The position numbers and the translations under genes are program-made. Below the pieces are notes generated by a model. That model was not told where the DNA came from and ran no database searches. It saw only the letters and a program-made list of their open reading frames with translations. From the IMG/VR virus record IMGVR_UViG_3300033145_000247, positions 1 through 38,724 of that record: 38,724 nucleotides of DNA, one strand, 5' to 3'. Position 1 is the stretch's first letter; each line of letters starts with the position of its first letter. Source of the stretch: a virus. Shown in pieces: positions 20,352 through 25,622 of the stretch.

Positions 20352-20496
20352 CTTCGATAAACTCTCACTTCGACTCAAAACGCTCGCCGACAAAGCGAAG
20401 CGATGGAAGGGCTGGCGCAAGGTCCGCGCTTTCTTTTGGGGATGGGTCAACAAATATTCCGAAAAGAAAGTTGACGACTTGAATAAAAATGAGTAG
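20344..20496 (+). CDS. 50-residue cationic, tryptophan-rich peptide
   Basis: ATG 20344 follows an AAGGAG site (20331-20336). The protein has a helical first half and a striking centre, KRWKGWRKVRAFFWGWVNKY, with four Trp, several Arg/Lys and an amphipathic pattern. Such peptides bind or disturb membranes. Here it could be a membrane-acting lysis factor or a membrane tether. It overlaps the glycosyltransferase start by 8 bp, so the two are translationally coupled. I know no family match. Confidence 0.6.
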   Translation: MSDFDKLSLRLKTLADKAKRWKGWRKVRAFFWGWVNKYSEKKVDDLNKNE

Positions 20497-22594
20497 TCAG
20501 ATTTTCGACATCCTGACCCTGGACATGACCTTCCCGGATACCGTCTACATTGTCGGCACGGCCCCCGTATCGACCGGCGTGCATGAGCGCATACCGCAAG
20601 GTGCGCTGACAATCGCCCTGAACGGTGCGATAACCTACGACATCAATCCGAATATCTGGATGATCGGTGATTCCCGATTCTGTAAAACCGATGTCTGGAA
20701 AGAGTACTCCTTTCAGATTAAAAACGCCGGTTACGATATAACGCCCTGTGGCATCTATCCGGGATGCAAGCCGGTCCCGCTCGTTTGTAACGTCTCGATC
20801 CAGCCGATGAATCCCTGGATTAAAACCGTTTTCAAAGTGAAGACCGGATCGAAAAGGCAGGACTGCGGACCATTCAAAAAGAGCGACGGCACTTTACGAA
20901 TGCACGGCACGGTAGCAGGCGCGGCGATTCAACTCTGCTACTACATGGGAGTGAAACATGTCCGGGTTGCAGGTGTTTCCCTGAACGGTCAGAGACATCA
21001 CGACGGAACCATAAATAAGGATACGAATAAACTTGGCGACTGGCCCCATAAGGATTTCTTCGATTGGATGATAATCAGTTTACAGAACAGTGGACTTGAT
21101 ATTGAATTCATCGAGAAGCCGCTCACGCAGGACATGCCCGCCGAGAACATGTCGGAGATCAAAAGGTTGGAAAGGATAAACACTGAATGGTCGGTAATCC
21201 CGAAACATACCGATTGGATTCTGGACCAGGGGAAGATACTGCCTCACACCGTTTTCGTTGTCGGCTCCGGCCCGAACGGATTAAAGCATTATAAGGATAT
21301 ACCGGAAAGTGCTTACGTAATCGCAGTGAATTCGGCAATAAATTATTTGCCGCGCAAGCCCGACATGTGGCTCTGTGCTGACGGCATGACTCCGAGCCGT
21401 GACTGGTTCGCAAAGGCACTGGAACTATCAGCAGAGGGCGTGGAGCGTGTCTGGAGTTGCGCCGTATCCGCTCGTACAATGTCAAAGCCGACGTATCGAT
21501 TCCAACTCGTGCCGAACTTTGAGGATGGTTTCAGGCCGGTCCCCGGATATTTTCGACCGGATGAAACAATCGCCGGTATCGGAATCGATCTGGCTCACCG
21601 TCTCGGAGCGCGTGAGATCGTTCTGGATGGTGTCGATATGTCCGGCGCGTTCTATGCGGACGGCTCGCCCTCACCCGGCAACGTGGATGACAAGCACGGT
21701 AAAATCTGGAACTGCTGTGAAGCTCTCGATGATGAAATAAGATGGATGCACGAGCATGGAATCCGAGTTTACACAATGAGTAAAACGGAATTGAAAGAGC
21801 CGGGATTATGGGTTGACAATAAACTCCCTTCTGTCGCGCTTCTTACCATGTCGGTCAATCCCGTTTACGCGAAACATGCCGTTTTCAATGCGGCGATACA
21901 GCGGTATCCGTCTCAACTTTTAACGCAATATATGATCTATCAGAACGGGACACAGCCGGATTTCAATCACGACTTGCCACACCGGATCGTGCAGTCGAAT
22001 GTGGACGGTAAATGGCCCGAGCTATGGCTACACAAACTCATGCACTTCTTCGACATCTCGACAGAAGGAGTCATGGCGATATTCGATGAAGATGATTATT
22101 TTGAACCGGAATATCTCGTACATGCAGTCCGCGCTTTAATTGAGAATCCCAAAGCCCTGGTTGCCTGGTCGTACAATAATAAGATGATTGACAGGCATAG
22201 AGTTAAAAGCGGCAAGTATCGCTCGCCGTTCGGCACGATTGTGGCGAGCCGGGATTTCTTGTTTAAGGTTGCAAAGCGTCTCTGGAAAAAAATATACAAG
22301 CTCGATTACCGTCCGAATGAAAGACCGCCCGGATATGGCGAACACAACGGATGCCAGGATGCGACTTATCGAATGATGATAGTCGAGGCGGCTGATGGTA
22401 GACTGGTAAAACTGCATGACGACTTCGAGAGCGGGGAGCGAATTGTTTTGCATGAAGGGCAGCGATGGTATGTAGAGCATCTGAATTCCAATACGTGCAT
22501 GAAGCGAAAAGATGAGAACTCGATTGATTACTGGATGCCGCATCCCTGGTATGCGGGTACGCAATTCGAGAAAACGCGAACGCAGAATAAATAA
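20489..22594 (+). CDS. Fused double MptE/Maf-like (DUF115-type) and glycosyltransferase protein
   Basis: The 701-residue protein has three parts. Residues about 10-200 and 245-430 are two related Rossmann-like domains: DTVYIVGTAPVS with IALNGAITYDINPNIWMIGD, and HTVFVVGSGPNG with IAVNSAINYLPRKPDMWLCADG. This is the pattern of DUF115 proteins such as MptE and the Maf flagellin glycosylation factors. Residues about 445-700 look like a GT-A glycosyltransferase, with VALLTMSVNPVYAKHAVFNA, a metal-binding DxD-type FDEDDYFEPEY near 531-541 and a later YGEHNGCQDATY segment. It is the last gene of the late operon, after fibre and methyltransferase, so virion glycosylation or modification of a host surface glycan is likely. 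Domain names are by pattern only. Confidence 0.72.
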   Translation: MSSQIFDILTLDMTFPDTVYIVGTAPVSTGVHERIPQGALTIALNGAITYDINPNIWMIGDSRFCKTDVWKEYSFQIKNAGYDITPCGIYPGCKPVPLVCNVSIQPMNPWIKTVFKVKTGSKRQDCGPFKKSDGTLRMHGTVAGAAIQLCYYMGVKHVRVAGVSLNGQRHHDGTINKDTNKLGDWPHKDFFDWMIISLQNSGLDIEFIEKPLTQDMPAENMSEIKRLERINTEWSVIPKHTDWILDQGKILPHTVFVVGSGPNGLKHYKDIPESAYVIAVNSAINYLPRKPDMWLCADGMTPSRDWFAKALELSAEGVERVWSCAVSARTMSKPTYRFQLVPNFEDGFRPVPGYFRPDETIAGIGIDLAHRLGAREIVLDGVDMSGAFYADGSPSPGNVDDKHGKIWNCCEALDDEIRWMHEHGIRVYTMSKTELKEPGLWVDNKLPSVALLTMSVNPVYAKHAVFNAAIQRYPSQLLTQYMIYQNGTQPDFNHDLPHRIVQSNVDGKWPELWLHKLMHFFDISTEGVMAIFDEDDYFEPEYLVHAVRALIENPKALVAWSYNNKMIDRHRVKSGKYRSPFGTIVASRDFLFKVAKRLWKKIYKLDYRPNERPPGYGEHNGCQDATYRMMIVEAADGRLVKLHDDFESGERIVLHEGQRWYVEHLNSNTCMKRKDENSIDYWMPHPWYAGTQFEKTRTQNK

Positions 22595-22756: not shown

Positions 22757-22786
22757 TTGACAGGCTGTACGTAAGTGTGGTATGAT
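22757..22786 (+). promoter_or_regulatory. Strong early promoter
   Basis: TTGACA (22757-22762), an 18-bp spacer ending in the extended -10 TGG, and TATGAT (22781-22786) make this one of the two best sigma70-like promoters in the window. Predicted initiation near 22793 gives a short leader with a GGAGG site before ATG 22814. It opens the early operon. Confidence 0.85.
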
Positions 22787-22793
22787 TAGGGCA

Positions 22794-22817
22794 TCAGATC
22801 AATGGAGGATGTTATGA
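22794..22817 (+). repeat. 24-bp direct repeat (translation start cassette), copy 1
   Basis: This sequence, containing the GGAGG ribosome site and the ATGA of the gene at 22814, is repeated exactly at 23330-23353 before the Xre gene. The second copy begins inside the 3' arm of RNA module 1. The two copies bracket one gene plus that RNA module, as would result from cassette duplication or recombination. Confidence 0.9.
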
Positions 22818-23041
22818 AACTCACAATCAAAAATGAAGGTACGGGTCGGATTCATTTCAATCCTGATGACTTCGAGCCGGACGAGCGGGCACTGATTGAG
22901 ATGTATAATGAGACGTGCCTGGGTTGTATGTTTGCCGAACCCGAGAATGCCCAAAAGGGTAAGCCGTTCTGCACATACGCGTTCAAGCGGATCATCACTG
23001 GCGATGGTGTCTGTGATGTAAAGCGAACGAACCAGTCCTGA
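22814..23041 (+). CDS. Small cysteine-containing early protein
   Basis: ATG 22814 is chosen over ATG 22802 because the GGAGG site (22804-22808) lies correctly before 22814. The 75-residue protein begins MKLTIKNEGTGRIHFNPDDF and has four cysteines in the second half (ETCLGCMF, GKPFCTYAF, GDGVCDV), which could bind one zinc ion. It is the first gene after the strong early promoter, a position used for host takeover or regulatory proteins. No family is recognised. Confidence 0.75.
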   Translation: MKLTIKNEGTGRIHFNPDDFEPDERALIEMYNETCLGCMFAEPENAQKGKPFCTYAFKRIITGDGVCDVKRTNQS

Positions 23042-23055
23042 CGAAGCGAAAGCGA

Positions 23056-23080
23056 AACCGGACTCTACATCCGGTCGGCT
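23056..23080 (+). other. Short hairpin upstream of RNA module 1
   Basis: An ACCGG...CCGGT inverted repeat (5 bp, loop about 9 nt) follows the stop of the upstream gene and precedes RNA module 1 by about 18 nt. It has no T-tract, so it is not a terminator. It may be a processing signal or part of the larger fold. Confidence 0.35.
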
Positions 23081-23091
23081 GGTACAGAACA

Positions 23092-23333
23092 TTGACAATT
23101 GAATCTAGCATGTGTGGGACTTGTCAGAGTCCGGCAGTGAAGATGCGGGGGATGCAAAAAGCCCCTAACGCCGCGAACGGCAATCATCATGGACGCTAGA
23201 AGCCTCAATGAAGGTGAGTTCTTAGGAATCCTGACAGTGAACTATGAACGATAGACCGGATAGGTGAATTGCAATAGTAGCGGACAGGACCGGAGTGGGG
23301 AATCCCGGCGCACATGCTAGATTGAATTGTCAG
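23092..23333 (+). ncRNA. Structured RNA module 1 (194-nt cargo in conserved helix frame)
   Basis: The 5' arm 23092-23115 and 3' arm 23310-23333 form a 24-bp helix. Its only mismatch is G-G at helix position 10 (23101 with 23324), plus two G-U pairs at the ends. The outer half TTGAxAATTGA is shared with three modules at 25.25-25.61 kb; the inner half is unique but fully paired. The cargo (23116-23309) has no supported ORF and contains GGACT/AGTCC, GGGG/CCCC and GCCG-CGAA-CGGC hairpins, ending in a GGGGAATCCC-containing hairpin next to the 3' arm. The module fills the roughly 300-bp gap between two early genes, downstream of the strong promoter at 22757, so it should be transcribed. I cannot assign a known RNA family. 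Confidence 0.75.
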
Positions 23334-23353
23334 ATCAATGGAGGATGTTATGA
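23330..23353 (+). repeat. 24-bp direct repeat (translation start cassette), copy 2
   Basis: This is identical to 22794-22817. Its first bases overlap the end of the 3' arm of RNA module 1, and it carries the ribosome site and ATG of the Xre-family gene. Confidence 0.9.
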
Positions 23354-24234: not shown

Positions 24235-24546
24235 ATGAGCGCGATAGAAAAAGTAATCGAAATATCAAAGTCCGGCTATGAATTGATTCAGGAAGAAGAT
24301 TGGTACGAGTTACTTGATGAAGTGAAGGAGCTTATGCCTGAACTCGCAGAACTCCGCAAGGATTCAGAGCGTTTGGAGTGGCTTAAATCCATGATGTCGG
24401 GCAAGACGCAAGTATTTATTATCTTTGATCTTCTTAACTCGATTAAACCGTGGGGCACGTATCGGAAACGTGCCAAGAGACCAAAGCCGTTAGAAAGATT
24501 CGAGGATTTCAATGCCGCAATCGACGCGGCGATGCTGAACACTTGA
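24235..24546 (+). CDS. Small helical phage protein, unknown
   Basis: The 103-residue protein starts MSAIEKVIEISKSGYELIQEEDWYELLDEVKELMPELAEL. It contains RKDSERLEWLKSMM, a phrase common in small uncharacterised phage proteins, and ends FEDFNAAIDAAMLNT. The promoter of the next gene begins within its last codon. Its role is unknown. Confidence 0.65.
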   Translation: MSAIEKVIEISKSGYELIQEEDWYELLDEVKELMPELAELRKDSERLEWLKSMMSGKTQVFIIFDLLNSIKPWGTYRKRAKRPKPLERFEDFNAAIDAAMLNT

Positions 24547-24572
24547 CAGACTACACAAGGGTATGGTATAAA
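24543..24572 (+). promoter_or_regulatory. Consensus promoter giving a leaderless transcript
   Basis: TTGACA (24543-24548), an 18-bp spacer ending in TGG, and TATAAA (24567-24572) are followed after exactly 6 nt by ATG 24579. No Shine-Dalgarno lies between, so the mRNA would start at or next to the start codon. Confidence 0.82.
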
Positions 24573-24823: not shown

Positions 24824-25165
24824 ATGGCGAAGAATTATATCAGCCGGGGCGACGTATTAACGCTTACCGCCCAAGCAGCCCACACATCAGGCTCACCGTA
24901 CAGGATCAGCGGATTCAATGGTGTCGCACTGATTTCTGTCGAGTCGGGCGAACAGTTGAGTTTCCAGCTTTCAGGGATCTTCGAGTTCACAATGAGCGAT
25001 GCCGCTGAAGTCGGCAGCCGGATATTCATCGACCTCAATGAGGGACTTCATGCCACCGGCGGCGGTCCCCAACCTATCGGCCAGGACTGGATACTGTTCG
25101 GTCGAGCCGTCACTGCAAGCGACGCGGAAGGCAAGTTTTACTGTCGCTTGCTTCAGTCAGACTAA
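24824..25165 (+). CDS. DUF2190-type capsid decoration-like protein
   Basis: Started at ATG 24824 (AAGGAG at 24811-24816), the protein is 113 residues. The opening MAKNYISRGDVLTLTAQAA and the beta-barrel-like phrases FNGVALISVESGEQLSFQLSGIFEFT and DWILFGRAVTASDAEGKFYCRLLQSD match the DUF2190 pattern, usually a small head protein encoded beside the capsid gene. Here it lies about 17 kb from the capsid gene, in the early region directly before the RNA module trio. It may have moved there, or may have a different job such as binding the RNAs, which is speculation. Confidence 0.7.
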   Translation: MAKNYISRGDVLTLTAQAAHTSGSPYRISGFNGVALISVESGEQLSFQLSGIFEFTMSDAAEVGSRIFIDLNEGLHATGGGPQPIGQDWILFGRAVTASDAEGKFYCRLLQSD

Positions 25166-25206
25166 CTCTCGATGGGTTAGCCCACGAAAACTTGGTAAGG
25201 GGCGAC

Positions 25207-25240
25207 GCGGCCCGTTCTTAGCCCGCACGGGCAAGGCCGC
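25207..25240 (+). other. Nested GC-rich hairpin before RNA module 2
   Basis: GCGGCC (25207-25212) pairs with GGCCGC (25235-25240) and encloses a second stem, GCCC with GGGC, around 25221-25232. It occupies most of the gap between the DUF2190-type gene and RNA module 2, and no T-tract follows. It may belong to the same precursor RNA. Confidence 0.55.
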
Positions 25241-25248
25241 AAAGCACC

Positions 25249-25375
25249 TTGATAATTGAGTTGGATGCTTGACCGCAACCAGGCCGACAATGCGGGTGGG
25301 GTTGTCACGGTGACAGCGCGCAATCCGGGGTTCGAGTCCCTTTCCCCCCACACAAGCATCCTACTGAGTTATCAA
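25249..25375 (+). ncRNA. Structured RNA module 2 (T-arm-like cargo)
   Basis: Arms 25249-25271 and 25353-25375 form a 23-bp helix with the constant outer half (TTGATAATTGA against TGAGTTATCAA), a G-G mismatch at position 10 and a U-U at position 14. The inner half GGATGCTTG/CAAGCATCC is perfect and unique to this module. The 81-nt cargo has CCGCA/TGCGG, GTGGGG (25296-25301) with CCCCAC (25346-25351), TGTCA-CGG-TGACA, and a hairpin GGG-TTCGAGT-CCC like a tRNA T arm. There is no D arm or usable anticodon arm, so it is not a normal tRNA. It is preceded by CAAAGCACC, a linker repeated before modules 3 and 4. Confidence 0.78.
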
Positions 25376-25384
25376 AAAAGCACC

Positions 25385-25492
25385 TTGAAAATTGAGTAGG
25401 GCATCTGTTACCGGACCCGGTATGCGCAGAGGTCAAGATGGTTTCTAGGGTTCAAATCCCATTATCTCACAGGTGTCCTACTGAATTATCAA
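25385..25492 (+). ncRNA. Structured RNA module 3 (T-arm-like cargo)
   Basis: Arms 25385-25407 and 25470-25492 pair over 23 positions with the constant outer half, an A-A at position 5 and G-G at position 10. The inner half GTAGGGCATCTG/CAGGTGTCCTAC is kept paired through two G-U pairs. The 62-nt cargo contains TACCGG-AC-CCGGTA and a hairpin GGG-TTCAAAT-CCC resembling a T arm. The linker AAAAGCACC joins it to module 2. No ORF or ribosome site is seen. Confidence 0.78.
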
Positions 25493-25503
25493 ACAAAAGC
25501 ATC

Positions 25504-25606
25504 TTGATAATTGAATGAGTGCTCGTGCAGAAGTCCGGCGGTGTGAGGCTCCAGGGTCAAAGCATGTCGGCAGCAAGTCGCGACCGGGCACTCATTGAGT
25601 TTTCAA
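25504..25606 (+). ncRNA. Structured RNA module 4
   Basis: Arms 25504-25525 and 25585-25606 pair over 22 positions: constant outer half, U-U at position 5, G-G at position 10, and inner half ATGAGTGCTCG/CGGGCACTCAT with one U-G pair. The 59-nt cargo is different again (GTCCGGCGG, CTCCAGGGTCAAAGC, CAGCAAGTCGCG) and lacks the clear T-arm hairpin. It follows linker ACAAAAGCATC. The AGGAG site of the next gene starts 4 nt after the module. Confidence 0.75.
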
Positions 25607-25622
25607 ACACAGGAGTTGAGAA

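Follow-up and report, generated by a model that had tools for sequence, protein, structure and literature searches.

Two neighbouring modules in a phage genome each carry, close to their 3' end, a short hairpin with the sequence of a tRNA T arm, which raises the question of what such an element does there and of what kind of RNA it would belong to. The DNA analysed (38,724 nt, hereafter the window) encodes terminase, portal, capsid, tape-measure, RecT, Gam-like and helicase-loader proteins, and it is a tailed phage far from known records. Searches with the decoration protein and the terminase gave no relatives. A search with the capsid protein returned one record at 49% identity (L008, whose 9.6 kb stop short of the module region) along with three weak matches, and a terminase alignment again brought up only L008. 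A DNA pattern search of viral and bacterial collections recovered no copies of the modules, the matches being either unrelated or coding, which means that, in the collections covered, the modules are known from one genome only; close relatives of the phage may escape such searches.

Inverted-repeat and motif searches recognised four modules, M1 to M4, of which M2, M3 and M4 stand head to tail and M1 stands apart (Table 1). What they have in common is a closing helix, which starts with an outer boxA-like arm (AGCACCTTGAWAATTGA) and continues into a variable, strongly co-varying inner helix, while the sequences between the closing arms, which we call the cargo, differ from one another and have no evident coding frame. 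The boxA-like string at the start of the 5' arm is AGCACCTTGATAATTGA in M2, with a single W variant in M3, a single change in M4 and more divergence in M1. When the closing arms of the four modules are aligned, 92% of the cells pair and 10 of the 22 pairs are changed on both sides, a figure that none of 500 shuffles reached, and sliding the partner strand by one base destroys the pairing signal. Pair 10 is a G.G mismatch that is invariant in all four modules. Since the 24-pair arms contain seven G.U wobbles and no A.C when read on the + strand, RNA from that strand, rather than DNA, is likely to be the molecule concerned. With the closing helix included, M1 folds at -96.7 kcal/mol (z -5.45 vs shuffles), and the corresponding z values are -4.27 for M2, -3.69 for M3 and -2.38 for M4.

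Table 1. Modules, hairpins and promoter-like sites, in window coordinates.
Feature	Position	Strand	Basis or closing arms
Sigma-70-like promoter TTGACA-18-TATGAT, upstream of the gene before M1	22757-22786	+	11/12 consensus bases
Hairpin around CCGGACTCTACATCCGG, just upstream of M1, in rrn-leader boxB position	23058-23075	+	sequence; fold of 23030-23092
Module M1: boxA-like arm, boxC core, ~190-nt multibranched cargo, 3' arm, no T-arm	23086-23336	+	arms 23092-23115 / 23310-23333
Possible promoter TTGACA-18-TATAAA of a putative M2-M4 transcript	24543-24572	+	read from sequence; not listed by promoter scan
Module M2: closing helix, cargo with T-arm-like hairpin	25243-25378	+	arms 25249-25272 / 25352-25375
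M2 weak tRNA-like core: acceptor-like 7-mer (one mismatch), short hairpin, T-arm, no anticodon arm	25294-25349	+	sub-threshold mascRNA-menRNA match
M2 T-arm-like hairpin GGG-TTCGAGT-CCC (GGGTTCGAGTCCC)	25328-25340	+	pattern match
Module M3: closing helix, cargo with T-arm-like hairpin	25379-25496	+	arms 25385-25408 / 25469-25492
M3 T-arm-like hairpin GGG-TTCAAAT-CCC (GGGTTCAAATCCC)	25448-25460	+	pattern match; pairing probability ~0.8
Module M4: same closing helix, cargo without T-arm	25498-25610	+	arms 25504-25527 / 25583-25606

As sequences, the T-arm hairpins are real. Both lie on the + strand inside 25296-25470, where a sequence-only reading of this DNA had placed them, and they are the only two matches to GGGTTCRANNCCC in all 38.7 kb, against 0.04 expected from shuffles. 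Dinucleotide shuffling of the cargo produced the T-arm pattern in 23 of 20,000 cases for M2 (0.00115) and in 6 of 20,000 for M3 (0.0003); a looser pattern, GGNTTCRANNCC, occurs three times in the window vs 0.86 expected, which is not unusual. The hairpins do sit just before the 3' closing arm, as had been described, ending 11 nt from it in M2 and 8 nt from it in M3. Their structure is where the earlier description has to be toned down, for the T stem consists of three G-C pairs and one G.U in M2 and of three G-C pairs only in M3, shorter than the five pairs of a tRNA, and the M2 T-arm accounts for only a minority of the predicted ensemble (p 0.12-0.2), in which G-rich and C-rich stretches compete. 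The T-arm is also absent from M1 and M4 and hence not a part common to the whole module system. The short stems, the weak prediction of the M2 T-arm and this absence all count against T-arm mimicry.

Neither M2 nor M3 is a tRNA. In the window, ARAGORN found no tRNA or tmRNA gene, the Rfam tRNA model (RF00005) had no match and no Rfam family reached its gathering score, so that the claim that neither module holds a complete tRNA stands. For tmRNA, the Rfam search gave no model match with a tag frame, just a 7.3-bit beta_tmRNA fragment. Both modules lack the 5-bp T stem and the CCA end of a tRNA, and something like the 7-bp acceptor stem is seen, with a mismatch, in M2 only. Against the mascRNA-menRNA model of Rfam the M2 core scores 15.8 bits (E from 0.33 to 4.2, depending on search size), well short of the gathering threshold, 42.5. 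Recruitment of elongation factor Tu, which had been put forward as one role for the T-arms, is unlikely because no CCA end is encoded and the acceptor-like stem, itself mismatched, is confined to M2.

It is the closing helix that points elsewhere. The sequence-only reading compared it with the closing helix of Y RNAs and missed its resemblance to the boxA and leader-trailer helix of rRNA operons (rrn). Of 251 Chloroflexota genomes, 8 contain the string GCACCTTGANAATTGAR, against 0 of 299 in the phylum of Acetivibrio and 0 of 149 in that of Actinomarina. Four of the eight Chloroflexota loci have 16S rRNA just downstream (Rfam) and are thus 16S leaders, and two more look like 16S leaders by eye. 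By sequence alone, the 17-mer pattern of the modules is the same as that of Chloroflexota 16S leaders, NusB binding being putative. In one Chloroflexota rrn operon (L079), all but two of the 24 positions of the arm TTGACAATTGAAGAGTGGAAAACA (22 of 24) find a partner in a strand ~215 nt past the 3' end of the 16S, which 0 of 2000 shuffles reach. A second boxA-like string, before 23S, starts a helix with a downstream strand (-63 kcal/mol), whose internal loop lies close to the position of the G.G in the modules. The boxB, boxA, boxC and leader-trailer helix of rRNA operons have been described, together with an RNase III site that overlaps boxC (PMC10250234). M1, alone among the modules, has an exact boxC core (TGTGTGGG, 23111-23118, the sole + strand copy in the window), and its order of hairpin, boxA-like string and boxC core is that of the E. 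coli rrsB leader; a BLAST search of E. coli genomes with the M1 leader gave no match. As the Rfam search found no rRNA in the window, the modules do not enclose rRNA and are therefore like rrn leader-trailer units without being members of that class. Their appearance is that of small RNAs in the packaging of rRNA precursors, and such rRNA-style units in a phage are a more surprising finding than the T-arms themselves. As a clue to the host, the rrn match in Chloroflexota is no more than a hint, because the capsid relatives in that phylum are distant (24-28% identical) and do not identify the host.

Similar strings also occur in other settings. In the phylum of an Oscillatoriaceae cyanobacterium, 4 of 117 genomes contain the boxA-like string in non-rRNA settings, so that the string by itself is no proof of an rrn-type unit. 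By eye, it stands around position 1501 before a ribonuclease E/G-like gene in two records of the cyanobacterial group (L087, L088), and before a similar-looking non-rRNA sequence, again around 1501, in one Chloroflexota (L071) and two cyanobacterial records (L085, L086). Two viral contigs, L001 (1173-1505) and L005 (44-458), have a boxA-like closing helix around short, differing reading frames, in which AAGCACC-TTGATAATT-G-AATAGACTTTGCAC meets its partner strand, once more with a G.G at pair 10, and the 3' arm leads on into a hairpin that resembles a terminator. These contigs share their arms and differ in the enclosed frame, and therefore count as one or two independent cases. A promoter reading of TTGATAAT / TTGACAAT was rejected by eye, since M1-M4 show no -10 at a suitable spacing; the same promoter-candidate string in L013 and L016-L018 resembles the -35 of a tRNA promoter.

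Several features of the neighbourhood deserve mention in their own right. Promoter-like sites are not enriched over shuffles in the region. The sequence CAGATCAATGGAGGATGTTATGA, a ribosome-binding region, is found at 22795-22817, before the gene at 22814, and again at 23331-23353, before the HTH gene that follows M1, this second copy overlapping the end of the M1 3' arm. A G+C-rich hairpin (GCGGCC...GGCCGC, 25205-25240), possibly boxB-like or terminator-like, adjoins the 5' side of M2, and a head-decoration-like gene (phrog_122, 24824-25165) adjoins M2 upstream, away from the structural genes. The 701-aa protein encoded at 20489-22594 has a weak MptE-like match (PF01973), just under the cut-off.

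The explanation that we find best, and hold tentatively, with somewhat less than even confidence in it as a whole, is that the modules are rRNA-precursor-like units and that two of them carry a genuine mimic of the T arm, which tRNA enzymes would recognise. On this view, M2 and M3 would be two of four structured RNAs that the phage encodes and produces in the way of ribosomal-RNA precursors, and in each of the four the boxA-like 5' arm and its 3' partner would close the RNA co-transcriptionally as a leader-trailer helix. Host NusB/S10 (via boxA) and RNase III may then help to fold the RNA and to release it from the phage transcript, all of which, from boxA recruitment to release, we infer from the resemblance to rrn operons. 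The T-arm hairpin of M2 and M3 would offer its sequence to T-loop enzymes such as TruB, possibly also to RNase P or TrmA, and the RNAs might thereby be modified and stabilised as if they were tRNAs, or occupy those enzymes. Such a function of the T-arms is plausible. We rank TruB-type recognition first and RNase P second, for three reasons: (i) TruB accepts GUUYRANYC in a 17-base T-arm (PMC7912444), a consensus that is fitted by GUUCGAGUC in M2 and GUUCAAAUC in M3, (ii) the minimal stem for TrmA is 5 bp (PMC7912444), more than the 3-4 bp of the M2 and M3 T stems and (iii) RNase P measures the stack of T-arm and acceptor (PMC4919913), to which only M2 has something similar, in its sub-threshold mascRNA-type match. 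The earlier proposal of T-arm mimicry without a tRNA body is thus supported by the above-chance sequences and the fit to the TruB target, whereas the recruitment of tRNA enzymes would be a further step that we infer, as we do the transcription, processing and purpose of the modules.

Other readings have to be set against this one. Bacterial Y RNAs have a closing helix with a fixed mismatch and a T-arm mimic, as the modules do, and the modules could accordingly be imagined as Y RNA-like molecules whose closing helix is bound by a Ro protein and whose tRNA-like part gates access. We regard this as very improbable, for the TROVE/Ro protein (PF05731) is absent from the window, in line with the earlier remark that no Ro/Rsr gene is visible in this DNA (the partner gene could lie in the host genome), the Rfam searches gave no Y RNA family match and it is rrn helices that the closing helix resembles. 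It is unlikely, if less so, that within a real rRNA-type packaging the T-arms are relics, M2 and M3 being decayed tRNA genes, or 3' halves of such genes taken in by recombination, inside processing stems. The tRNA-like position of the T-arms near the 3' end would fit such a history, as would the acceptor-like stem and weak mascRNA-type match of M2 and the fact that rRNA operons often include tRNAs (PMC10250234). When the flanks of the T-arms were compared with phage tRNAs by BLAST, however, the best E was 0.5, and controls (one query per hairpin, with the same hairpin and shuffled flanks) reached 0.1-0.5. Matches that had seemed suggestive of tRNA ancestry were equalled by these controls, and nothing beyond the 13-nt hairpin therefore shows tRNA descent. 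Moreover, the module helices are maintained, which means that the modules are not decaying as wholes, and the record contains no integrase, which also weakens an origin from an attachment site (attP).

Chance must be considered too, since the feature was picked after the sequence had been read, the looser pattern is no rarity in the window by chance standards, and only two of the four modules have a T-arm, with short stems at that. T-arm strings might thus have arisen by coincidence in G+C-rich structured cargo, the role of the modules being unrelated to tRNA, and yet two independent matches at matching places in neighbouring modules, with the low cargo-shuffle frequencies given above, make this quite improbable. 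We are likewise doubtful that the boxA-like sites and stems are cis-acting antitermination, processing or stability elements of phage mRNA, with the cargo merely lying between them. Such sites are known in nut-type antitermination (PMC10250234), and L001 and L005 show the same boxA-like stem and G.G mismatch around short protein-coding frames, but the cargo of M1-M4 has no such evident frame and folds well (z -2.4 to -5.5), and three head-to-tail units would be superfluous for a single antitermination site.

The reading as rRNA-precursor-like units can be taken further, to the idea that the phage makes counterfeit rRNA precursors, that is, non-coding RNAs that would enter the host pathway of rRNA transcription, folding and RNase III cleavage via boxA and leader-trailer helices, some of them with a T-arm, and, in the course of infection, would make use of or tie up factors of ribosome and tRNA maturation. 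In this full form we think it rather unlikely, but if it were true, the phage would have borrowed rRNA-precursor packaging for small RNAs of its own, with a tRNA hairpin as an addition, which would be an unusual route to interfere with, or make use of, ribosome and tRNA maturation, and would provide a natural test of the role of boxA and the leader-trailer helix when no ribosome is built.

Among known systems, mascRNA (the MALAT1 tRNA-like RNA) is like M2 only, combining a T-arm with an acceptor-like stem and no normal anticodon arm, but the match falls far below the cut-off, the family is eukaryotic and M2 encodes no CCA. The bacterial Y RNA YrlA shares with the modules a helix closed from both ends and a T-arm-like element, but the modules have an rrn-like helix sequence, are without an Rfam match and are accompanied in the window by no Ro protein. 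A lambda-type nut site (boxA/boxB) is similarly a boxA-like element in a phage transcript, whereas each site in the modules is paired with a 3' partner strand and an N-like protein was not identified. The rrn leader-trailer helices of E. coli and Chloroflexota differ from the modules in that the latter have a G.G at pair 10, which the rrn helix used for comparison did not show, occur as several tandem phage units and enclose 60-220 nt of uncharacterised RNA instead of rRNA. Common to them and the modules is a long helix that the two ends form, with a boxA-like sequence at its base; further likenesses are the boxC core of M1, the hairpin upstream of that module and, in a Chloroflexota pre-23S helix, an internal loop at nearly the same place.
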